Shown in pieces: positions 8,745-39,450 of a stretch of DNA of 64,000 bases. The notes below the pieces were generated by a model. The model searched no databases and was not told the origin of the DNA. It saw nothing but the letters and a program-made list of their open reading frames with translations. Position numbers and translations under genes: made by a program. Positions within the stretch are counted from its first letter, which is position 1. Each line of letters starts with the position of its first letter. Source of the DNA: an uncultured Helicobacter sp. (lineage in GTDB: Bacteria > Campylobacterota > Campylobacteria > Campylobacterales > Helicobacteraceae); contig NZ_CAJTLL010000006.1 in the NCBI RefSeq assembly GCF_910577135.1, positions 1 to 64,000 of the forward strand. The letters are read 5' to 3'.

Positions 8745-9068
8745 TCAAAAAAGCGTGAGCTGTTTAGGTTCATTGGCTTTTTGGTTATCATTTGGTTTGC
8801 CAAGTAAAAGCCGCATATTATCAAATTGCTTTTCTGTGAGGATTAAACCCCGAATGTGCCCCTTGGGAGGTACGATAAGACTTATCTTATCTAAATGATG
8901 ATTAGCGCTTATAACACCTTTACAGATTCTCATATATACGCTGTATTGAAGCATTATAAAACCATCTTGTATAAGATATTTGCGAAACTTAGCATAAAGC
9001 TTCCTCTCTTTCTTGGTGTATGTTGGCATATCAAACATCACTAGCACTCTCATAAATATATCTTCCAT
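8745..9068 (-). CDS. cas2: CRISPR-associated endonuclease Cas2
   Basis: Small ferredoxin-fold protein that bridges two Cas1 dimers in the spacer-integration complex. It has 107 residues from the first ATG. The core RVLVMFDMPTYTKKERK is the type II Cas2 start, with the conserved Asp. A second ATG at Met6 (9053) also has a GGAAGA site and gives the more usual N-terminus MRVLVMFDMPT; either start overlaps cas1. It is the last gene of the cas9-cas1-cas2 operon and runs convergently into the tracrRNA. Confidence 0.93.
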   Translation of the reverse strand: MEDIFMRVLVMFDMPTYTKKERKLYAKFRKYLIQDGFIMLQYSVYMRICKGVISANHHLDKISLIVPPKGHIRGLILTEKQFDNMRLLLGKPNDNQKANEPKQLTLF

Positions 9069-9996
9069 TGGATTTGTCCTTGCAAAATATTGGTAGCCTT
9101 AAGGTAAATGTGCTTTTTTGAATAGCAGATGCAAGGCTCTGCACACTCATCACACTCCCACGATTAAGCGGATAGCACTTGCCTTCTACCATCACTGCTG
9201 CACTTAAGACCCCTGCTAACCTTACACGATTTTCAAGACTCAAGGTTGTGTCAAGCTCCCCACCTTGATACATCTCTACTACAAGTGAATCTACAAAAAC
9301 ACGATAAGGCTCTATCAGATCATCAGCAAGATTAAATGCGTTAAATTGATTTTTATGATTAATCCCTAATGCAGGATTTAGCCCGCTCGCACAAAGACTT
9401 CGCACAATCATACCCCTCACAATCGCATAGCCATAATTAAGCGCAGCATTTATAAGCCCTATCTGCGTATCCTCAAAGATTTGCACCTTGCGGCTAAAGT
9501 CTTTCCCAAAAAGTGCCTTAAAGTATAGAGAGGCTGCTTTTGCTTCGTTATGAGTGCTATCTGCGAGTTTCACTCCCTTGGCTAGAGATTCTAATGCTTT
9601 AAACTCTTCTCTTTGTTGCATTTGTAGGAGCAAGGCTTGATTATGAATCTTTGATTTGATGATGTGCTGCCAAAGTATTGCCTTAGCTTGTTTGCTAAGC
9701 TGAATTTGGTGCTGTAAGATAGTGAGGCTTTTAAAATGTCCCAAAAATGGCATAAAGATACCGCTAGGCAAGTGAGAGCTATCACAAGTGTAGCAAATGA
9801 TTTTTGCCTGTGCAAGAGCGTCAAGGAGCGCATTTGTCAAGGTAATTTGATGAGATTCTAAAATAAGGCACAAAATATCATTAAGAGGGATTTTGACCTC
9901 ATCTTTACCCTCCTGTGCGATACAAAGGTGTTTTTGATAGAGGCTAAGCCTTGCAGGAGTGCTTAAGAAAAGTGTCCTAAAGGCAGAATCAAACAT
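9031..9996 (-). CDS. cas1: CRISPR-associated endonuclease Cas1
   Basis: Integrase of the adaptation complex, 321 residues, of the type II Cas1 group. The N-terminal beta domain ends near residue 85. The catalytic helical domain contains GLINAALNYGYAIVRG with the metal-binding acidic site, then GINHKNQFNAFNLADDLIEPYR with the conserved His and Asp. The gene starts 1 nt after the cas9 stop and overlaps cas2, so the operon is tight. All visible catalytic positions look intact. Confidence 0.95.
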   Translation of the reverse strand: MFDSAFRTLFLSTPARLSLYQKHLCIAQEGKDEVKIPLNDILCLILESHQITLTNALLDALAQAKIICYTCDSSHLPSGIFMPFLGHFKSLTILQHQIQLSKQAKAILWQHIIKSKIHNQALLLQMQQREEFKALESLAKGVKLADSTHNEAKAASLYFKALFGKDFSRKVQIFEDTQIGLINAALNYGYAIVRGMIVRSLCASGLNPALGINHKNQFNAFNLADDLIEPYRVFVDSLVVEMYQGGELDTTLSLENRVRLAGVLSAAVMVEGKCYPLNRGSVMSVQSLASAIQKSTFTLRLPIFCKDKSNGRYIYESASDV

Positions 9997-9997
9997 T

Positions 9998-12900
9998 CTA
10001 GCCCCTTTTCTTATATTTTGGACTTAATTTAAGCGCGATATTTTGGCGCGGAGTAAAATCTGCCTTTTGCACTTCACCCAAAGAGGATACTTGATATTTT
10101 TCAAAAATTTTAAGGTTTTGAATCCCTATGCTTTTTCCCACGACTTTTTCCTTTGTCGCATTGGTATAAAGCAGCTTTTCATTGTCGCTTAAGCCCTCAA
10201 GTTTATTATTATGCTTTTCAACTTGAATCTGTGCTAAAGCAGAATCAAAGCTTACAAAGTAGCATAATTCTGCCTTTTCCATATCCTTTTTCTGCACTAA
10301 GATTAAATCATCTTTAAAGAGGCTAAAGCAAAATTCGTAGGAATTATCCATCTCTAGCCAATCTTTAATGACTTCCTCCTTGTCTTTCCCGCTTACTACC
10401 GCTTTATTAGGCAAGATTCCTAATGCAAAGTCCATTGTATAGATAGGCACACCATAGAACTTGCCATTTTGCTTATGTTTGAAAATATCTACACGCACCA
10501 TATTGCCATTTTTAACGATTTTTGTGCCAATGCGGCGGATTTTGCCCAGTGCTATTGCCTTTTCTATACCCTTTTGTCCGCCATATTGTTTCATTAAAGC
10601 CTTATCACCAAAAGAATAAAATGTCTCCTCGTGCAATGCCCTTCTAGCACGTTTTCGCGGAGGCTTAGAAACAAAGATAGAATCCACCTTTGCCAATACC
10701 CTTTCCCTAAAATACGCCATAGGCTCAAAAAATACTTTTTGCTTTTTGTAGTCAGCCTCTGCCATTTCTTTGGCGTAGAATCTCGCTCTATTCAGCTCTC
10801 GCTGCTTTTTAAAATCGCTAAAAGCTTTAATCATTTTTGCATTACTAAAGGCAATAATAATCGCATCAAATGCGTGGTGGAGGTGATTATCCCTATCTTT
10901 TTCCCCCAATCCCCAATAATGCCTTAGCATCGCCGTGAGATTCCCACTTACTACCTCTATATGCACTTTGCTGCCCTTTTCTCCGGAGATGGTTACTTCA
11001 CTTTCACTTAAAGGCAAAAATTCTAAGCAATCCTTCGTCCAATTCGCACAAAGCCTTGCAATATAGCTTGTGTCATTGAGATTCCTAGGGATAAAGCCAC
11101 TCTCTTTTTCTACAAAATGTTCATTGCAGATTCTGCGCTGCTTTGGCTTGGGGAGCTTCAGCGAGTAGCTTTTGATTTGCTCCCATTTCTTTGTATCTCC
11201 CCCAAAGGCTTCAAAAGGCGTCTTGTTGTGCTTATTTTGATTTTCCTTCGTAAAGCAAAGCACCTTATTCAAATAGCTATCATCAAAACTACGCGAATAA
11301 GGGTAAATATGGTCAATTTGCAGTATTTGAGAGTTAAGTAAATGCGCTCTAGTAATTTTCTCCCCACTATACACGCAAAACTCCCCCTGCTCTAGCCATA
11401 GCTTCACTTTAAGAATATTTATCGCACTAAGGGGCAGCCCTAGAATCTCACATTGCTTTTTTGCCTTCTCATTTTTAGCAAATTGTTCCCTTTGCTCCTT
11501 TATAATATTGTTTCGCTCTTTAAAACTCCTGCCTACCTCACGTGTAAATTCAATATGAATCTTATGCATCTGCCCATATTTCTTAAGTAAGCTATTTAGC
11601 ACCTTGCGATACTCACTCATCGCCCTTGCCACAACGGGATTTGCCAAATAAGGTTCATATTCATTGAGCGGTGATAATAGATTATCTTTTTGCGCCCTCT
11701 TTCTCCATTCTTTTAGTCCCGCTTGTCGCACAGCCTCATCGTATTTTAACCCCTCCCGCATAAAAGGCAGAATCTGCTCTAATGCCTTGAGGCTAAGGTT
11801 AATATGCCCTGCAAAGCTTAGTGTGCTTAAAGATTCTTTTTGTGTATCAGCGAGAGCATATCGCTCTAGGGCGCTTTTTAGCTTGATCTTATCCTTAATG
11901 AGCGTGATATATGTAGCTATCTCATCTAAATCCATACGTAAAAGCCCATCAAAGCTCCCACTCAAAGCCTTTTTGAATGCTTTAAAATTCTTAAACTCAA
12001 TAAATGCCGCCTTTTCTGCCACGCTTAACTCTTTAGTATAATCAAGTTTAGAATCTTTAGGAAATCGCATAGATTCAGGCAATTGCAATATCTCACGCAA
12101 TGCCTTATAGTTTATCTCTCCTTTTTCAAGCACGATGTGTAAAATTTGTGTAATCATATCTTTACCATAGACTTCACCACTTTGCTTACTGATAGATTGC
12201 AAGGTGTTAATAATGCGTGTAAGGACGATAAACTCCATCGCACTTAGAGTATTTTTAGCTGCACGATTTTCCTCCTCATAAAACACACATTTACCTACCT
12301 TATCGCTAAAATCCTTTAACTCACGCTGATAAAAGGCAATATCTATAATTTTTTGGCAAAAATTCTCAGCTAGTCTCACACCCAATGTATTTTGTGTATG
12401 CAAAATCAGTTCTAGTTCTGCTTTGAGCTCACTTTGTGCCACACAACGTTGATAATAACCTTCGCCTCTATTACGCACATTTTGAAATTCTTTACTATTT
12501 GTGCTACCTTTTTTCTCACTATCACTTCGTTCTTGCTGATAAAATGTTTTATAGAGATATTCACCCACACTTTTGTAGCCTTTTTCGTCCAAAATACGTT
12601 TGTTTGCTTCAATGGCAGCCTTAATCTTGCCATTTTCACTTTGCTTAGCATTATCCATTTCCCTTGCGTGTTTGTTCCCATAGCCGCGGTGTTTAGCGAT
12701 ATGCAATATCACTCTAGCCAAATCTTTGTGTTCTAGTCTTTGTGTGAGGGCTAAAGTGCGCAATTCATAAGGGCTTTTGGTGTCTTTGGTATTGATATAA
12801 GCCTTTGGTAAATCTCCATCATCGCTTAAATAATCATCCACATTCAAGCCAAATTCCTTGCATATCAGCTGTTTTAAGGCATAAAGTCTGCCTTTTCTAC

Positions 12901-13075
12901 GTGCTAATCTCCGTCTTGTGCTTCGTGCCTCCCGTCTTGGCAATGCTAAAGGTGCTCCTGTTTTTGGATTTTCTGCTTGGGTGAAGATTCTCACTCCGCA
13001 ATCTTGCAACTCATTACCCTCTACATACGCCCAACCAATGCTTGTAATCCCTATATCAAATCCTAAGACCTTCAT
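9998..13075 (-). CDS. cas9: Cas9 endonuclease, compact type II-C
   Basis: RNA-guided double-strand nuclease, 1025 residues, close in length and sequence to C. jejuni Cas9. RuvC-I has Asp7 (VLGFDIGITSIGWA). The bridge helix is Arg-rich (about residues 48-62). RuvC-II has Glu509 (HIEFTREVG). The HNH domain has Asp588-His589 (QIDHIYPYSRSFDDS) and Asn612. RuvC-III has His734 and Asp737 (HHAFDA). All catalytic residues are present, so it should be active. The C-terminal PAM-interacting end (about 800-1025) shares GIQNLKIFEKY with C. jejuni but diverges after it, so the PAM may differ. Only cas1 and cas2 follow (no csn2 or cas4): subtype II-C. Confidence 0.97.
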   Translation of the reverse strand: MKVLGFDIGITSIGWAYVEGNELQDCGVRIFTQAENPKTGAPLALPRREARSTRRRLARRKGRLYALKQLICKEFGLNVDDYLSDDGDLPKAYINTKDTKSPYELRTLALTQRLEHKDLARVILHIAKHRGYGNKHAREMDNAKQSENGKIKAAIEANKRILDEKGYKSVGEYLYKTFYQQERSDSEKKGSTNSKEFQNVRNRGEGYYQRCVAQSELKAELELILHTQNTLGVRLAENFCQKIIDIAFYQRELKDFSDKVGKCVFYEEENRAAKNTLSAMEFIVLTRIINTLQSISKQSGEVYGKDMITQILHIVLEKGEINYKALREILQLPESMRFPKDSKLDYTKELSVAEKAAFIEFKNFKAFKKALSGSFDGLLRMDLDEIATYITLIKDKIKLKSALERYALADTQKESLSTLSFAGHINLSLKALEQILPFMREGLKYDEAVRQAGLKEWRKRAQKDNLLSPLNEYEPYLANPVVARAMSEYRKVLNSLLKKYGQMHKIHIEFTREVGRSFKERNNIIKEQREQFAKNEKAKKQCEILGLPLSAINILKVKLWLEQGEFCVYSGEKITRAHLLNSQILQIDHIYPYSRSFDDSYLNKVLCFTKENQNKHNKTPFEAFGGDTKKWEQIKSYSLKLPKPKQRRICNEHFVEKESGFIPRNLNDTSYIARLCANWTKDCLEFLPLSESEVTISGEKGSKVHIEVVSGNLTAMLRHYWGLGEKDRDNHLHHAFDAIIIAFSNAKMIKAFSDFKKQRELNRARFYAKEMAEADYKKQKVFFEPMAYFRERVLAKVDSIFVSKPPRKRARRALHEETFYSFGDKALMKQYGGQKGIEKAIALGKIRRIGTKIVKNGNMVRVDIFKHKQNGKFYGVPIYTMDFALGILPNKAVVSGKDKEEVIKDWLEMDNSYEFCFSLFKDDLILVQKKDMEKAELCYFVSFDSALAQIQVEKHNNKLEGLSDNEKLLYTNATKEKVVGKSIGIQNLKIFEKYQVSSLGEVQKADFTPRQNIALKLSPKYKKRG

Positions 13076-34046: not shown

Positions 34047-34573
34047 TCTATAGGGCTTCAAGAGGCAGGAAGCCACCAAAAGCCGTATAAAACTTACTTG
34101 ATAAATCCTATTTTATTTATAGGAGATGGGCTTAAATGTGTAAATGTGGAGCAAGAGGGTAATCCGGCGAACACTTTGTGCGTATGACAAACGCAATAGT
34201 GGTTACAACTCTACCCTTTAGAGCGTGAGTGTGGATTTTATATCGCGTGAAGCAAGATTATGTAGTAGTTTTAGCTACTACAATGTAGCCATAATAGACT
34301 AGAGAATCTTTACCTTAAAAACTCACTTGATAACCAAATGAAATGCGGTTATCAAGTGAGATTCTTTTGTCCTCAAGGGCTATCGCCCTTTGCGAGATTA
34401 AATCCCTTCGGGATTGAATGGTGCGAAGTGGAGATTTGACTGCACAGGAAGCAAGACTATGTAGTAGCTAGAATAGGCTAGAAAATCTTTAGTCTATTTT
34501 CTTTATTTCTATTAAGGGGTGAGCAGTATGTCCATAAATAGCTTAAAGAATTAGTTTGCGGATTGTAATAATG
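34047..34573. repeat. Gene-free region with dispersed repeat copy C (inverted) and a perfect hairpin
   Basis: No gene. At 34322-34360 a 14-bp perfect stem CTCACTTGATAACC with its complement encloses an 11-nt loop. Next comes 34364-34428, the inverse complement of the block at 13791-13855 and 54280-54344 (CTTTTGTCCTCAAGGGCTAT...GGTGCGAAG). The motif GTAGTAG(C/T)TAG with GAAGCAAGA(C/T)TATG occurs twice (about 34250 and 34450). Confidence 0.7.
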
Positions 34574-34655
34574 CAAGGGCTTGATAAGAGGTAGGATAAG
34601 ATACACTCACTCTCAAGCCAAAAGTGAGTGCGGCATCTTAGTAACACTTGGCTAT
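34574..34655. repeat. Left arm of the long inverted repeat bounding the 34.6-39.2 kb block
   Basis: Reverse complement of 39121-39205 with a few differences and one small indel: both contain AAGTG(C/T)TACTAAGAT, the stem CACTTTTGGCTTGAGAGTG, and CCTACCTCTTATCAAG. The stem in the middle changes in a compensating way between the arms (GC pair in the right arm, AT pair in the left arm), so it is probably structured in RNA. Confidence 0.8.
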
Positions 34656-34697
34656 CAATAAACTTAACAGTAAGATTATTACTAAGATCTTATCCAT
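34638..34697 (-). CDS. Small hydrophobic peptide, third toxin-like paralogue (probably silent)
   Basis: A 19-codon frame, MDKILVIILLLSLLIAKCY, from ATG 34697 to TAA 34638. It aligns with the peptide at 39065-39136: both begin M(S/D)KI and end (A/V)KCY, followed by the same downstream stem. Its 5' region has been replaced: upstream sequence is the antisense of a surface-protein fragment, leaving only AGGGA as a weak ribosome site, and no hairpin or promoter like that of the intact copy. Likely a relic, orientated opposite to the intact copy. Confidence 0.6.
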   Translation of the reverse strand: MDKILVIILLLSLLIAKCY

Positions 34698-34698
34698 T

Positions 34699-34803
34699 TT
34701 CCCTAACAAACTTTACCAATAGTGGCACTATAACAGGTTCTAGTGGTGTATTTACCTTTAATACTGCTACAATCACTACGCTTACGAATACGAACGCGAA
34801 CGA
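34699..34803 (+). pseudogene. Fragment of the beta-helix surface-protein family
   Basis: One frame reads SLTNFTNSGTITGSSG, then VFTFNTATITTLTNTNANE, a typical stretch of the repetitive passenger domain seen in the genes just downstream. There is no start codon or signal peptide, and after about 34803 the coding sense stops where a palindromic element begins. 34705-34748 is the + copy of the 44-nt sequence that recurs inverted at 35751-35794 and 37048-37091. Confidence 0.75.
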
Positions 34804-34814
34804 AATGCTTATCC

Positions 34815-34985
34815 TGTCATTACAAGAGAGCAAAGCGACCGAAGTAATCCACCAAGCCAAGATACAACTTCTTTTATCTTCTTTAGAATCTTTGCAGAAT
34901 GTAAAGCAAATTATAGCTGGAATACAAAGTTTGCCTTTGAAGAGTGGATTGCTTCGGCTAAAGCCTCACAATCAGGGCAATAGAA
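34815..34985. mobile_element. MITE-like palindromic element
   Basis: The ends are imperfect inverted repeats: CCTGTCATTACAAGAGAGC with CCGAAGTAATCCAC at the left, and GTGGATTGCTTCGG with CAATCAGGGCA at the right. This is the widespread TGTCATTGCGAG...AAGCAATCC class of dispersed palindromic element. It interrupts the surface-protein fragment before it and ends just upstream of the next gene's start. It has no coding capacity of its own. Confidence 0.55.
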
Positions 34986-35001
34986 GTAAGGGGAAGAGGT
35001 G

Positions 35002-35796
35002 ATGGAAAGGGGAAATAAGCTCGCTCTTGTATCCTTAGCCCTAGCTCCCTTACTTCTTAGTGTAGAAGCACAGGGGGCAATTAGTGGGGCAACTTGCTCT
35101 GGGAATACCTCCACAAACATCACTAATCAACAAGTGCGAGTTATTGGTAATGAAGCTGCTAGAACCATTAATATCAATACTACTCCGGGTGGGACTGATG
35201 TTCATTCAGTGTTCGGAGCAAGTATAGGGCTAAATGGAGCGATTCTAGGCAGAATTAATGTCGGTCAAAATGTTACTAAAACCAATAGAAATATATTATG
35301 GCTGAATGATTCAACCCTAACAACCTTTACAAATAATGGAACTATAACTGGCTCTAGTGGTGTATGGATGCAGAACTCTACCATTACTACCCTTACGAAT
35401 AATGCTAATGCTACCATAAATTCAAATGCTACAAGTGGGAGATTTGGGGCTATTGATCTTAATAGCAATGCAAGGATTGATAATCTTATTAATAGCGGGA
35501 ATATTAGTAATACGGCTCATAATACTACTGCGGCTATATTCTTTGAAGGAAGAACAACAAATGCGCAAATAGGAAATTTGACTAATAATGCTGGAGGGAC
35601 TATTCAAGGTATTAGTGTGGTTGCTGGTAATGGGAATAGGATAAATACAATAAATAATAGTGGAATGATTAATCGAGGTATTACCAATGGCGCAAATATA
35701 GGCACTCTTACTAATCAAAATGGTGTATATACTTCTAATACTGTTAGAATCACCACTAGAGCCTGTTATAGTGCCACTATTGGTAAAGTTTGTTAA
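35002..35796 (+). CDS. Truncated surface (autotransporter passenger-like) protein, copy 1
   Basis: 264 residues from ATG 35002, with AGGGGAAGAGG just upstream. A signal peptide (LALVSLALAPLLLSVEAQGA) leads to an Asn/Thr/Ser/Gly-rich beta-helix with repeats of the form LTTFTNNGTITG, LTNNANATI, LINSGNI, LTNNAGGTI. No beta-barrel anchor follows. The last 17 or so codons (TTRACYSATIGKVC) are the antisense reading of another family fragment, so the frame is fused tail-to-tail with an inverted piece. From 35319 on it is duplicated 1297 bp downstream. It may be secreted, or it may be a silent cassette. Confidence 0.65.
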   Translation: MERGNKLALVSLALAPLLLSVEAQGAISGATCSGNTSTNITNQQVRVIGNEAARTININTTPGGTDVHSVFGASIGLNGAILGRINVGQNVTKTNRNILWLNDSTLTTFTNNGTITGSSGVWMQNSTITTLTNNANATINSNATSGRFGAIDLNSNARIDNLINSGNISNTAHNTTAAIFFEGRTTNAQIGNLTNNAGGTIQGISVVAGNGNRINTINNSGMINRGITNGANIGTLTNQNGVYTSNTVRITTRACYSATIGKVC

Positions 35797-35826
35797 AGTT
35801 GAAGCCCCTTGGATAACATCAAACAA
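35751..35826 (-). pseudogene. Inverted surface-protein fragment at the 3' end of copy 1
   Basis: On the minus strand the frame reads FDVIQGASTLTNFTNSGTI, then TGSSGDS, clearly the sense strand of the same passenger family. 35751-35794 is the reverse complement of 34705-34748 with one mismatch in 44 nt. Upstream on the minus strand a run of eight G (C8 on +) and a stop lie before the coding sense. It is a truncated piece, not a gene. Confidence 0.75.
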
Positions 35827-36217
35827 AATAGCAGAGCAGCATCCGGCAATAATAGCTATACCTTAATTGCCCCCCCCAATATACAACATACACAGAGCTT
35901 CTAAGCTTTGCTTCTCAACCCAAAAGCGTAAAAAATAGAGAGCTTGAAGCATTGTTTTAAGATTACTTTGAGCAACGCTTTGCTTAAACAATTAAGCAAT
36001 ACATAAGCTCTTATTGCGTATCCTACTCTATTTATTTTCATCAATAAGAAAAAGTGCATTAATTTTTTTGGCTGCAAATGCAGTCCATATTCCACATACA
36101 AGGGGTTGAAATGACTATCACAAAATGCTTTTCTCCTAGCATCACTTACACCAGCGGGATAAGCATATTTGTAATACTATCCCTGATGCAAATAAGACAT
36201 AAGCCGCAGAACTCACT
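35797..36217. other. 5' flank of copy 2, with a C8 tract
   Basis: 421 bp, repeated exactly at 37094-37514. It holds the rest of the inverted fragment, eight C at about 35870-35877, and a region ending in TTTTTTGGCTGCAAATGCAG then GGGGTTGAAATGACTATC. The 66-codon minus frame at 35901-36101 has no support. The C8 tract is where slippage could join or separate frames. Confidence 0.5.
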
Positions 36218-37093
36218 ATGCTTAATCAAAAGCTTTTTACTTTACTTACCCTAGCTCCACTCCTTCTTAGTGTGGATGTTAATGCCACGGTTAATGGAGC
36301 CACTCTCAATGGGAATACCTATACCAATATTGCCGGACGACAAGTATATGTTACAGGCAATGAGTCTAATAATGATATTAATGTATCTAATCCTCCTCTA
36401 GGAACCTCTCAAATCCACGCCGTTACAGGAGCAAGTATAGGGCTAAGTGGTGCACAGCTAAGAAGTTTAAGCATTACCAATGCTATTAATCAAACCAATA
36501 GAAATGTCGTATGGCTTGACAATTCAAGCTTAACAACCTTCACCAATGCTGGCACACTCACTTCCACTACTCAAGGGCAAGCTGTTAATCTAAGGGGAAA
36601 TACTTCTTCTTCGATAACAACCTTCACAAATAATGGAACTATAACTGGCTCTAGTGGTGTATGGATGCAGAACTCTACCATTACTACCCTTACGAATAAT
36701 GCTAATGCTACCATAAATTCAAATGCTACAAGTGGGAGATTTGGGGCTATTGATCTTAATAGCAATGCAAGGATTGATAATCTTATTAATAGCGGGAATA
36801 TTAGTAATACGGCTCATAATACTACTGCGGCTATATTCTTTGAAGGAAGAACAACAAATGCGCAAATAGGAAATTTGACTAATAATGCTGGAGGGACTAT
36901 TCAAGGTATTAGTGTGGTTGCTGGTAATGGGAATAGGATAAATACAATAAATAATAGTGGAATGATTAATCGAGGTATTACCAATGGCGCAAATATAGGC
37001 ACTCTTACTAATCAAAATGGTGTATATACTTCTAATACTGTTAGAATCACCACTAGAGCCTGTTATAGTGCCACTATTGGTAAAGTTTGTTAA
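36218..37093 (+). CDS. Truncated surface (autotransporter passenger-like) protein, copy 2
   Basis: 291 residues. Signal peptide LFTLLTLAPLLLSVDVNATV, then the beta-helix with GTLTSTTQGQAVNLRGN and the same LTNN/NSGTI repeats; the last half is identical to copy 1, including the antisense-derived end (ACYSATIGKVC). There is no clear Shine-Dalgarno before ATG 36218 and no membrane anchor. A hybrid: N-terminal half unlike copy 1, C-terminal half identical. Confidence 0.62.
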   Translation: MLNQKLFTLLTLAPLLLSVDVNATVNGATLNGNTYTNIAGRQVYVTGNESNNDINVSNPPLGTSQIHAVTGASIGLSGAQLRSLSITNAINQTNRNVVWLDNSSLTTFTNAGTLTSTTQGQAVNLRGNTSSSITTFTNNGTITGSSGVWMQNSTITTLTNNANATINSNATSGRFGAIDLNSNARIDNLINSGNISNTAHNTTAAIFFEGRTTNAQIGNLTNNAGGTIQGISVVAGNGNRINTINNSGMINRGITNGANIGTLTNQNGVYTSNTVRITTRACYSATIGKVC

Positions 37094-37858
37094 AGTTGAA
37101 GCCCCTTGGATAACATCAAACAAAATAGCAGAGCAGCATCCGGCAATAATAGCTATACCTTAATTGCCCCCCCCAATATACAACATACACAGAGCTTCTA
37201 AGCTTTGCTTCTCAACCCAAAAGCGTAAAAAATAGAGAGCTTGAAGCATTGTTTTAAGATTACTTTGAGCAACGCTTTGCTTAAACAATTAAGCAATACA
37301 TAAGCTCTTATTGCGTATCCTACTCTATTTATTTTCATCAATAAGAAAAAGTGCATTAATTTTTTTGGCTGCAAATGCAGTCCATATTCCACATACAAGG
37401 GGTTGAAATGACTATCACAAAATGCTTTTCTCCTAGCATCACTTACACCAGCGGGATAAGCATATTTGTAATACTATCCCTGATGCAAATAAGACATAAG
37501 CCGCAGAACTCACTATGCTTAATCAAAAGCTTTTTACTTTACTTACCCTAGCTCCACTCCTTCTTAGTGTGGATGTTAATGCCACGGTTAATGGAGCCAC
37601 TCTCAATGGGAATACCTATACCAATATTGCCGGACGACAAGTATATGTTACAGGCAATGAGTCTAATAATGATATTAATGTATCTAATCCTCCTCTAGGA
37701 ACCTCTCAAATCCACGCCGTTACAGGAGCAAGTATAGGGCTAAGTGGTGCACAGCTAAGAAGTTTAAGCATTACCAATGCTATTAATCAAACCAATAGAA
37801 ATGTCGTATGGCTTGACAATTCAAGCTTAACAACCTTCACCAATGCTGGCACACTCAC
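36616..37858. repeat. Tandem duplication unit 2 (nearly complete)
   Basis: Second copy of the 1297-bp unit, 1243 bp long. It ends inside copy 3, right after GGCACACTCAC, where sequence diverges into TCAAGAACAGAGGGGC. The identity means a very recent event, or an assembly effect. Confidence 0.9.
37048..37123 (-). pseudogene. Inverted surface-protein fragment at the 3' end of copy 2
   Basis: Exact repeat of the fragment at 35751-35826 as part of the tandem unit. It carries the third copy of the 44-nt sequence (37048-37091, minus sense), giving one + and two - copies within 2.4 kb. Confidence 0.75.
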
Positions 37859-37907
37859 ATCAAGAACAGAGGGGCAAACTATTAATCCAAACAGATTATG
37901 CAAATAG
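37515..37907 (+). CDS. Truncated surface protein, copy 3 (N-terminal part only)
   Basis: 130 residues, identical to copy 2 for the first 114, then a different end (SRTEGQTINPNRLCK) and a stop. It holds the signal peptide and the first beta-helix turns only. It is probably a broken gene whose 3' part was lost where the recombinase segment begins. Confidence 0.55.
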   Translation: MLNQKLFTLLTLAPLLLSVDVNATVNGATLNGNTYTNIAGRQVYVTGNESNNDINVSNPPLGTSQIHAVTGASIGLSGAQLRSLSITNAINQTNRNVVWLDNSSLTTFTNAGTLTSRTEGQTINPNRLCK

Positions 37908-38000: not shown

Positions 38001-38687
38001 TTACTTTTTCATTCTCGCAATAAGTGAGGTGCTTTTATCTTTCTCTATACGCAAAGCTTCTACAATTTTTTTATTCCTACGGCAATACATATAAAATCCG
38101 TGGTAAGTTCCCTCTTTACCTATAAGCTTCCAAATACTCCCTAAATCTAAATCTTTTTGAATATACTCGATGACTTCTTGCTCATATTTATCCCATTTAC
38201 TTATGCTTGTTCTCCCTTTGGGTCGCCCTAAGATTTTACCTTGAGCTTTTGCTGCGGCTAAGCCTTCCTTGGTGCGCATAGATAAAAACTCTTTTTCAGT
38301 TTCTGCAATGTGAGCGTATATTGTAAGTATAAGTTGCTCTGTATTGCTTTGAGATGTGCTTAGCTCTTTTTGTTTGACAAAGATAAATTGAATTCCTATT
38401 TGTGATAGCTCTAAGAGGAGATTCATCACCTCTAGCATACCTCTGCCTAGCTTACTAAGGTCAGTGGTAATAAGCACATCACCTTTATTTAATCTTGATT
38501 TGAGGGCTGCTATTTTACGTTGTTCTTGGCTTTTTTTACTTGAAAGGGTGGCTTCAAGAAGCTCATCAATAATAAGCTGATGGGTTTGAGCGTATTCTAA
38601 GATAAGCTGTTTTTGTTTATCATTCTCTTGCTTTTCAACACCCACTCTAAGATATGCAATTATCATTATTCTTTTATCCATACTCAA
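38001..38687 (-). CDS. Serine-recombinase-like protein lacking the catalytic serine
   Basis: 228 residues of resolvase/invertase type (Mpi/Pin-like). The N-terminal catalytic fold reads IAYLRVGVEKQENDKQKQL, where the family has YxRVS: the nucleophilic Ser is Gly (codon GGT, 38640-38642). The second motif is DLSKLGRGMLEV (family SRLGR), so one of the active-site Arg positions is Lys. The E-helix EKEFLSMRTKEGLAAAKAQG and the GRPKG entry to a C-terminal helix-turn-helix are normal. It may be inactive, or act as a DNA-binding accessory protein. It lies among the surface-protein fragments, on the minus strand. Confidence 0.8.
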   Translation of the reverse strand: MSMDKRIMIIAYLRVGVEKQENDKQKQLILEYAQTHQLIIDELLEATLSSKKSQEQRKIAALKSRLNKGDVLITTDLSKLGRGMLEVMNLLLELSQIGIQFIFVKQKELSTSQSNTEQLILTIYAHIAETEKEFLSMRTKEGLAAAKAQGKILGRPKGRTSISKWDKYEQEVIEYIQKDLDLGSIWKLIGKEGTYHGFYMYCRRNKKIVEALRIEKDKSTSLIARMKK

Positions 38688-38889: not shown

Positions 38890-38967
38890 TCAAACCCCTC
38901 GAACATTAATAGCTTGCCCTCCAGTAGTGGAAGTGAGTGTGCCAGCATTTGTGAGGGTTGTTAAGGA
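38890..38967 (-). pseudogene. Inverted 26-codon surface-protein fragment
   Basis: The minus frame reads SLTTLTNAGTLTSTTGGQ, then AINVRGV and a stop. It matches copies 2 and 3 around GTLTSTTQGQAVN. It has no start and directly abuts the promoter of the small peptide gene at 39065. Together with the + copies at 36.5 and 37.8 kb it forms another inverted pair, this time across the recombinase-like gene. Confidence 0.7.
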
Positions 38968-38980
38968 ATAATGTAGATTT

Positions 38981-39063
38981 TATAATGTAGTATAATTGTA
39001 GTGGGGCTGTCCTAAGGGGTGGCTGCCCCTTAGATGATAGCCTCCTTTAAAAAAAGGAGGCTA
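38981..39063 (+). promoter_or_regulatory. Promoter and structured 5' leader with a buried Shine-Dalgarno
   Basis: Two TATAAT boxes at 38981-38986 and 38991-38996 put transcription start near 39003. The leader then forms CTAAGGGG (39012-39019) with CCCCTTAG (39026-39033), and directly after it TAGCCTCCTTT (39038-39048) with AAAGGAGGCTA (39053-39063) around a 4-A loop. The second, perfect 11-bp stem contains the whole Shine-Dalgarno AAAGGAGG of the peptide ORF. Such anti-SD hairpins hold type I toxin mRNAs silent. Confidence 0.75.
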
Positions 39064-39103
39064 AATGAGTAAGATTTATTCGCAAATCTTAGCAGCCATT
39101 ATA
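39003..39103 (-). ncRNA. Candidate antisense RNA over the toxin-like gene
   Basis: On the minus strand TAGTATAAT (-10 at 39103-39098) lies inside the peptide ORF. A transcript starting near 39091 would run through the start codon, the Shine-Dalgarno hairpin and the leader, as antitoxin RNAs such as IsoA do over AapA genes. The same minus-strand box TAGTATAAT is kept in the paralogue (about 39268-39278). The 3' end of the RNA is a guess: it is placed at the leader end. Confidence 0.45.
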
Positions 39104-39136
39104 CTACTATGTATAATAGTAGTCAAGTGCTACTAA
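39065..39136 (+). CDS. Putative type I toxin-like membrane peptide (23 aa)
   Basis: MSKIYSQILAAIILLCIIVV then KCY and stop. A short basic/polar head is followed by a 16-residue hydrophobic helix and a Lys-Cys-Tyr end, the layout of small inner-membrane toxins such as Helicobacter AapA, Ldr or Hok-type peptides, though not their sequence. AAAGGAGG lies 4 nt before ATG. Downstream, CGCTCACT...AGTGAGCG (39148-39173) makes a 3' stem. Two paralogues lie at 34638-34697 and 39235-39450. The strong leader structure and antisense promoter argue that the ORF is real; toxicity is inference. Confidence 0.65.
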   Translation: MSKIYSQILAAIILLCIIVVKCY

Positions 39137-39205
39137 GATAGTCCAAGCGCTCACTTTTGGCTTGAGAGTGAGCGTATCTTGTCCTACCTCTTATCAAGTC
39201 CTTGT
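39121..39205. repeat. Right arm of the long inverted repeat
   Basis: Inverse complement of 34574-34655. It begins in the last codons of the peptide ORF (GTCAAGTGCTACTAAGAT), includes the 3' stem, and ends TACCTCTTATCAAGTCCTTG. The pair encloses the surface-protein fragments and the recombinase-like gene. Confidence 0.8.
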
Positions 39206-39234
39206 TTTAGCCTCTTCATAAAAAGGAGATTGCC

Positions 39235-39450
39235 CTGAAAGCAAGATTTACACGAATCTTGGTAGCTATTATACTATTATATGTAATAGCTTTTACTATT
39301 GTGCTGTGTGCGCCGCTCTTGTATAAATGGAAACACATTCCATTTATACGTCTAAAGGATAGAGTTAAATTAAGGCTAAAGCTTTGTTTGACCCCTTGCG
39401 TGATTTCATCATACGCACAAAGTGCTTATCCACACTTGCTTGTAGCGTAG
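39235..39450 (+). pseudogene. Second toxin-like paralogue with lost start codon
   Basis: CTGAAAGCAAGATTTACACG... aligns with the intact copy's ATGAGTAAGATTTATTCGC, but the initiation codon is CTG (39235) after AAAAAGGAG. The peptide would read ILVAIILLYVIAFTIVLCAP before running on to TAG at 39450. A later TTG (39259) has no ribosome site. The leader stem has decayed to CTCTT/AAGGAG. A 12-bp perfect stem, GTATAAATGGAA (39321-39332), follows the hydrophobic part. Probably silenced. Confidence 0.5.

Follow-up and report, generated by a model that had tools for sequence, protein, structure and literature searches.

The window analysed here is a 64,000-nucleotide (nt) stretch of an uncultured Helicobacter sp. 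(contig NZ_CAJTLL010000006.1, positions 1 to 64,000, forward strand), in which an initial annotation made from the sequence alone had singled out positions 38,981 to 39,136 as a compact gene for a 23-residue membrane peptide with a self-locked leader, a candidate type I toxin. The parts that it listed (twin TATAAT boxes, a stem of 8 base pairs (bp), an 11-bp stem holding the Shine-Dalgarno (SD) sequence, a 23-codon open reading frame (ORF), a 3′ stem and a minus-strand −10 box within the ORF) are all found where it had placed them (table 1). Their arrangement goes beyond chance: positions 38999-39180 fold at −78.6 kcal/mol, against −46.9 (standard deviation 4.1) for dinucleotide shuffles, a z score of −7.7, with none of 200 shuffles folding as low. 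The element also extends past that description, to include the segments at 39176-39193, which can pair with the start codon region and the leader.

Table 1. Coordinates of the element and its parts, counted from the first base of the window.
Feature	Position	Strand	Basis or remark
Candidate type I module, one copy of the family	about 38991-39201	+	sequence and family comparison
Upstream TATAAT box	38981-38986	+	sequence; box scored together with a −35
−10 box TATAAT, predicted promoter of the toxin mRNA	38991..38996	+	sequence; agrees with family consensus TGTGATATAAT
Leader 5′ end GGGGCTG	39003..39009	+	in the predicted leader x tail 2 duplex of the window copy
Leader stem-loop 1, 8 bp (39012-39019/39026-39033)	39012..39033	+	5′ arm alternatively pairs with 3′ tail 2
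SD-sequestering hairpin, perfect 11 bp (39038-39048/39053-39063), −17.0 kcal/mol	39038..39063	+	sequence, folding
Shine-Dalgarno AAGGAGG	39054..39060	+	sequence; inside the 11-bp stem
ORF MSKIYSQILAAIILLCIIVVKCY, 23 codons, ATG at 39065, stop at 39134-39136, putative membrane toxin	39065..39136	+	sequence, codon analysis
Intra-ORF hairpin UAAGAUUU/AAAUCUUA, hypervariable loop 39078-39083, putative antisense contact	39070..39091	+	variability and folding
Candidate antisense promoter: −35 TTGACT 39126-39121, −10 TATAAT 39103-39098, 17 nt spacing	39098..39126	-	consensus scan
Predicted antisense (antitoxin) RNA over ORF start, SD and leader; both ends inferred	39003..39091	-	predicted folding
3′ hairpin of the untranslated region (UTR)	39147..39175	+	predicted fold
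3′ tail 1 ATCTTGTCC	39176..39184	+	complements the last start-codon base, codon 2 and codons 3-4; codon 2 mismatched in the window copy
3′ tail 2 TACCTCTTA	39185..39193	+	complements the 5′ arm of leader stem 1
3′ tail 3 TCAAGTCC	39194..39201	+	complements the 3′-hairpin loop region
Second tandem copy, decayed; lacks the family start codon (by eye)	39207..39340	+	present too in the matching locus of G001

The element belongs to a family of dispersed copies. In the nearest genome (G001) the corresponding locus is 94% identical in DNA over 342 of 351 bases, and a DNA search of 59 related genomes returned matches at an expectation value (E) < 1e-5, up to eight per genome within the same genus (at E ≤ 1, 58 of the 59 genomes match, mostly by chance). 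The 23-residue peptide itself matches 8 of the 11 genomes of the window's genus (E ≤ 1), and a profile built from 17 such peptides finds the family in 28 of 121 Helicobacteraceae genomes (E ≤ 0.01), spread over 6 of 13 genera and reaching ten places in one genome; a wider profile finds it in 21 of 398 genomes from the order (E ≤ 1e-4), all belonging to two families. The named carriers are H. cinaedi, H. magdeburgensis, H. labetoulli, H. marmotae and H. canis. We extracted the coordinates of 42 elements and aligned 34 copies, leaving out one with a truncated 3′ end (L053:1577), two with interrupted ORFs (L061 and L063) and a divergent group (L043:1582 and L067-L070). The ORF and leader stem, whose lack of conservation in other strains had been named as evidence against the candidate, are present elsewhere, and the whole layout recurs in 33 aligned copies besides that of the window. 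At least 6 of the 42 extracted copies are broken, by frameshifts (L057, L059), an early stop (L035), insertions (L061, L063) or loss of the 3′ end (L053:1577).

Several copies depart individually from the common plan. L061 (in G032) and L063 (in G003) carry similar inserts, very roughly 120 bases long (by eye), in one shared position after codon 15, past which the remainder of the element resumes; the insert is a short repeated element that breaks the toxin genes. The window holds a second family member on the minus strand at 34500-34900 (ORF at 34709), reduced to MDKILVIILLLSLLIAKCY, in which the leader and recognition loop are gone, with other sequence in the leader's place; its intact relative is L032 in G001. 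The toxin mRNA of the window copy would begin at about 39001-39004, and its opening GGGGCTG is predicted, by modelling only, to pair with the 3′ end. The first of the twin TATAAT boxes is also found in L031 and L032 and is not evident in the remaining copies, as judged by eye. L031, the copy in G001 that matches the window's, retains this first box and has lost the second, though the rest of the family keeps it (by eye), and promoter use may differ between the window and L031 copies.

Database searches assigned the family to no known group. The window has no Rfam match at the gathering score and six matches under it within 38900-39350; the PDB search gave one match only (E 3.9), and the NCBIfam search no convincing family (best E 1.1). 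The Pfam family FAM163 is matched by 10 of 16 members (best E 0.0019), the window peptide scoring 17.7 bits against a cut-off of 28.3, and we take this match as one of composition.

The ORF bears the marks of a coding sequence under selection for a hydrophobic product. The window peptide has 13 consecutive uncharged hydrophobic residues (I8-V20, by eye), a putative transmembrane helix, followed by a lysine (K21) that is invariant in the alignment (A1), and the peptides end in VKCY or a variant of it. Among the 27 of the 34 ORFs that have 23 codons, on which all codon statistics given here are based, the mean pairwise difference over codons 12-20 is 0.26, 0.00 and 0.21 at the first, second and third positions, respectively. 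The invariant second position is T, except at codon 16 (mostly Cys), so that the residues stay hydrophobic. Start, stop and SD are conserved across the aligned copies, and length differences among otherwise intact ORFs are multiples of three (L053:6540, L058, L060, L062).

The candidate antisense promoter of the window copy (TTGACT, 17 nt, TATAAT) has 11 of 12 consensus letters, and the mean score over the 27 ORFs is 10.56 of 12, with the −35 TTGACT in every one and an exact TATAAT in 19. Back-translation of the same peptides with the codon usage of the window yields a score of only 8.92 (standard deviation 0.16), with a maximum of 9.44 among 400 sets. Codon 20 (V20) is GTC in 27 of 27 copies, a codon that makes up 14% of the valine codons of the genome, and codon 14 is CTA in 24 of 27, against a usage of 13%. 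Judged by these sequence scores, the predicted antisense promoter within the ORF is conserved more strongly than the peptide alone would demand. In the window copy the predicted antisense RNA has three hairpins, of which the first bears the complement of the ORF loop, and most of the seven copies folded are alike.

That loop, in which codons 5-7 lie, belongs to a hairpin (UAAGAUU/AAUCUUA) predicted in 32 of the 34 copies, the exceptions being L046, where it lies in another register, and L062, where it is missing. Comparisons of copies within genomes (30 of the 34 copies) give 0.50 differences per site in the loop codons versus 0.17 in the rest of the ORF, and 0.53 versus 0.10 at second codon positions. 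Within seven genomes every copy's loop is distinct (28 of 28). Two copies of one genome (L039 and L040 in G004) have near-identical leaders and 3′ UTRs and ORFs that differ in the loop alone, and the few stretches that differ between the window copy and L031 include codon 2 and the loop. The loop of codons 5-7 is likely, on this pattern of variation, to be a paralogue-specific contact for the antisense RNA.

The copies also match themselves better than they match one another in the predicted pairing of the mRNA. The duplex of anti-SD and SD is stronger within copies than between them (−13.7 versus −11.5; own better in 30 of 34), a difference that none of 5000 permutations reached, although the copies are related and this and the following permutation counts hence overstate significance and are not true probabilities. 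Of the ten pairs of the SD hairpin, four outer ones change on both sides. In 31 of the 34 copies the 3′ tail holds an exact reverse complement of codon 2, for six different codons (GAT, AGT, GTT, GAC, TGT and AGC); the exceptions are the window copy, L043:1730 and L062, which pairs in another register. Over nine bases of the start region, a copy pairs with its own tail at 8.91 of 9 positions versus 8.27 with other tails (0 of 20000 permutations; 33 of the 34 rows, the out-of-register L062 being left out). The same preference is seen in the predicted duplexes of the start region with tail 1 (−13.1 versus −9.5), the leader with tail 2 (−14.2 versus −10.6; 29 of 34 copies) and the 3′ hairpin with tail 3 (−9.5 versus −8.0), each at 0 of 5000 permutations, and is not significant for the leader with tail 1 (2399 of 5000). 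When the SD hairpin and the start-tail 1 helix are scored together, 94.2% of pairing cells pair versus 89.4% in shuffled alignments, double changes number 45 versus 13.9 and the covariation score is 0.215 versus 0.127, with 0 of 500 shuffles reaching any of these values. The start-tail 1 helix appears in the minimum-energy folds of L040 and L042.

Relatives of the element occur on plasmids. A plasmid DNA search with the window as query returned 38 records, Campylobacter plasmids among them; a copy from a C. coli plasmid returned 286, of which 285 are from Campylobacter and 253 are typed conjugative, and another copy returned 287, including a partial match on NC_008790.1, the 45-kilobase (kb) plasmid of C. 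jejuni 81-176. The majority of these matches are incomplete (at least 80% query cover in only 44 of the 286 and 24 of the 287 records), and we make no claim that each matching record bears an intact module. We opened 4 of the 38 records from the window-query search: three list no gene at the match, the fourth (L126) has a type IV secretion gene on the opposite strand, and none of the four regions lists a gene at the ORF on its own strand, in what is an incomplete gene table. The plasmid peptides are MLTKIIVIIILLCIIIVKCY and MKFTRFILVAIILLSLIVVKAF, with two TTG-started relatives (translated by hand). In all four plasmid copies inspected the antisense promoter scores 11 of 12 letters; the 3′ tail of the C. 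coli plasmid copy pairs with the SD region over 19 uninterrupted bp, a predicted duplex of −31 kcal/mol. A tblastn search of plasmids with the 23-residue peptide gave no match although the DNA search did, so that peptides this short call for searches at the DNA level or with profiles.

At 1501-1637 of L126, from the Campylobacter peloridis plasmid pPEL1, the element overlaps the start of the opposite-strand secretion gene, and further plasmid matches overlap trbJ, trbG, TrbM or Rha/BRO genes. A 46-kb contig from a viral collection (L123, IMGVR_UViG_2811995190_000004) holds a family member, MSKIYNRILVAIILLCLIIVKCN, with a leader and a matched 3′ tail. Small RNAs have been reported on the plasmids pTet and pVir by RNA sequencing and northern blot (PMC3656092).

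Taken together, these data make it very probable that the element is a chromosomal type I toxin-antitoxin module built like aapA/IsoA of H. pylori, with a toxin of a different family. The type I class proposed in the initial annotation (a small membrane peptide, an SD-locking leader and an antisense promoter within the ORF) draws support from conservation, covariation and codon bias. We propose that the plus strand would yield an mRNA of roughly 200 nt for a single-span hydrophobic peptide, and that a local hairpin would hide the SD during its synthesis. Once the RNA is complete, its 3′ tail would fold onto the leader and start codon region and keep the full-length molecule untranslated, and, by analogy with aapA and hok, removal of the 3′ end would open it. 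An RNA initiated on the minus strand within the ORF would meet the mRNA through the codon 5-7 loop and the SD hairpin, and this contact would stop translation and target the duplex to RNase III. The proposal is built on sequence, predicted folding, covariation, codon constraint and distribution, from which we infer transcription of both RNAs, 3′ processing, the kissing contact and membrane toxicity.

Several observations weigh against this proposal, beyond the relatedness of the copies already mentioned. A consensus scan found no intrinsic terminator on either strand, and the antisense RNA folds (7 of the 34 copies) comprise hairpins with no clear U-run in several. The loop is the longest variable stretch of the ORF and not the sole one, codons 2, 11, 17 and 23 being highly variable too. 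Covariation in the SD hairpin is confined to the outer pairs; those covering GGAGG hardly vary and are little informative. For the leader and tail 3 no significant preference is seen (1415 of 5000 permutations), so that a pairing between this tail and the very start of the leader has no support as a separate test; the preference of the 3′ hairpin for tail 2 is significant (0 of 5000), probably in part because the tail windows overlap. In the full-length fold of the window copy the start-tail 1 helix is absent, and the SD pairs with an anti-SD relic in the downstream decayed copy. The minimum-energy folds leave leader stem 1 closed, so that the leader-tail 2 pairing rests on covariation and not on energy, and the AUG of the longest prefixes is unpaired with probability 0.30 (window), 0.63 (L031) and 0.24 (L042).

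The alternative that best survives these data concerns the window copy and not the family: the family would be a type I toxin-antitoxin system, with the window copy silenced or decaying, its perfect SD hairpin keeping the mRNA shut even after 3′ processing. The perfect lock described in the initial annotation is indeed present, but it is a family exception, 28 of the 34 copies having the CCTAC form with an A opposite a G; L031 has this usual mismatch. Its predicted energy (−17.0 kcal/mol) is equalled only by L032 in G001 and compares with −9.6 in L031 and a mean of −10.5 over the 30 copies scored as mismatched. During prefix folding the window's SD is unpaired with probability ≤ 0.03 at every length, whereas that of L031 reaches 0.48 at some lengths, and anti-SD hairpins stabilised by suppressor mutations are described as abolishing aapA3 toxicity (Masachis 2019, PMC6733600). 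Moreover, codon 2 and tail 1 disagree in the window: its codon 2 (AGT) does not fit its own tail (GTC), which still fits the GAC of L031. A plausible history, read from the sequences, is that the stretch from codon 2 to the loop was replaced from another copy and that a further change closed the lock. The decayed tandem copy directly downstream, the leaderless remnant at 34709 on the minus strand and the broken copies elsewhere point the same way. Nevertheless, the ORF, antisense promoter and leader of the window copy are all intact; L032, with a hairpin of equal strength, has a matched tail; and the mismatched L042 is nearly as locked as the window in prefix folding (SD unpaired at 0.00-0.07 versus 0.00-0.03), so the A-G mismatch alone does not decide whether the SD opens. 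The window copy may thus be inert or over-locked although the family is active, a reading to which we give roughly one chance in three.

A riboregulated small membrane protein that is no toxin (for example, a modulator of stress or of membrane proteins) under antisense control is a further reading, the toxicity of the peptide being putative and tight control of translation serving non-toxic small proteins as well; we nonetheless regard it as improbable, since an addiction-type toxin is the better fit to the multiple paralogues with distinct loops, the several broken copies, the plasmid relatives (conjugative plasmids) and the layout resembling that of aapA. A non-coding repeat, akin to miniature inverted-repeat transposable elements (MITE) or repetitive extragenic palindromes (REP), in which palindromes and a short ORF are incidental, would suit the many dispersed copies per genome and the strong inverted repeats but is largely refuted already, and we consider it very improbable indeed, given second positions that stay invariant over codons 12-20 while first and third positions vary, length changes in threes and a conserved start, stop and SD.

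Elsewhere in the window, three ORFs at 34999-37907 contain repeated near-identical stretches, and two of them begin alike, MLNQKLFTLLTLAPLLLSVDVNATVNG. The two that were scanned have no Pfam match, and the three resemble cassettes from a surface protein rich in repeats. A gene of the resolvase family (38001-38687, minus strand; Pfam Resolvase, 4.8e-27) adjoins them, which makes rearrangement at the locus possible. Type II CRISPR-like genes, recognised by eye, lie on the minus strand at 9031-13075 and include a 1025-residue Cas9-like ORF and a Cas1-like ORF.

We tentatively advance a broader hypothesis, to which we assign somewhat less than even confidence: that Helicobacter and Campylobacter have in common one RNA chassis for self-silenced toxins, fitted with at least two unrelated peptides (AapA and the VK[CA]Y family). 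The N-terminal codons would then be free of selection for the peptide and give each paralogue its own RNA barcode, a hypervariable kissing loop preventing cross-silencing among up to about ten near-identical modules per cell; codon 2 would stay matched to its reverse complement in the 3′ UTR; and the same modules on Campylobacter conjugative plasmids would probably be unannotated maintenance genes. If true, annotation has overlooked a self-acting toxin gene family that occurs in H. cinaedi and its relatives and, at least partially, on many Campylobacter conjugative plasmids, and that could matter for the stability of plasmids and for dormancy in these bacteria. It would also become testable how many near-identical modules under antisense control stay insulated from one another in a single cell: where natural paralogues differ mainly in the loop of codons 5-7, the prediction is that no antisense RNA but a paralogue's own will silence it.

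The family may be new or already recorded. No description of it was found in the open-licence literature that we searched; the Arnion study of 2017 reportedly places similar systems in many Helicobacter and Campylobacter genomes, and the window family may already be among the entries of that study or of T1TAdb. Among described systems, Hok of plasmid R1 is longer than the window-family peptide, and the toxin partner of cjrA on pVir is named CjpT. The hok/Sok system resembles the window family in the plasmid-borne relatives of the latter and in a full-length mRNA inhibited by long-distance 5′-3′ pairing (PMC6733600). CjrA/CjpT can be set beside it by description, cjrA having been reported as a type I antitoxin RNA from a Campylobacter plasmid (PMC7826846). 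Ibs/Sib of E. coli offers a similarly short hydrophobic toxin (IbsC, 19 residues), which is described as being without C-terminal positive residues (PMC8309996), whereas K21 is invariant in alignment A1 of the window family.

The closest likeness in working is to aapA/IsoA, for which the published accounts describe an inactive full-length mRNA with a 5′-3′ interaction, transient anti-SD hairpins, activation by 3′ truncation and an antisense RNA (PMC6733600, PMC8322730). The window family agrees with this anatomy at the level of sequence. That the peptide is not an AapA, as the initial annotation held, is borne out: AapA1 and the window peptide give no alignment at E ≤ 100, and AapA1 as a single query matches none of the 11 genomes of the window's genus. 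The window peptides have 23 residues versus 30 in AapA and no C-terminal Lys-Arg, which AapA toxicity needs; their antisense −10 lies in another reading frame and has a consensus −35; and their 3′ tail is complementary to codon 2 and the region of the start codon. Across the 121 genomes the 28 with the window family and the 30 matched by AapA1 (E ≤ 0.1) do not overlap, a count in which the weakest AapA1 matches are doubtful and divergent AapA could be missed. The two are nevertheless alike as multi-copy chromosomal modules in which a 5′ stem-loop complements the 3′ end with its 5′ arm (in the AapA1 locus L117, 5′ CCCCCATAAG and 3′ CTTATGGGGG, by eye), a local hairpin can hide the SD and, at the sequence level, an antisense promoter lies within the ORF, its −10 at nearly the same position (ORF nt 36-41 in AapA1, 34-39 in the window family). 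Both also vary in their N-terminal codons: 13 of 13 distinct AapA copies from two genomes, found by tblastn in 14 regions where a strict regular expression had found 3, keep ATTATAC in the ORF and vary in codons 2-6, and the tandem copies L164 and L165 differ mainly there. As the peptides do not align and no genome is shared, we liken the window family to aapA/IsoA in its working and do not file it as a member.
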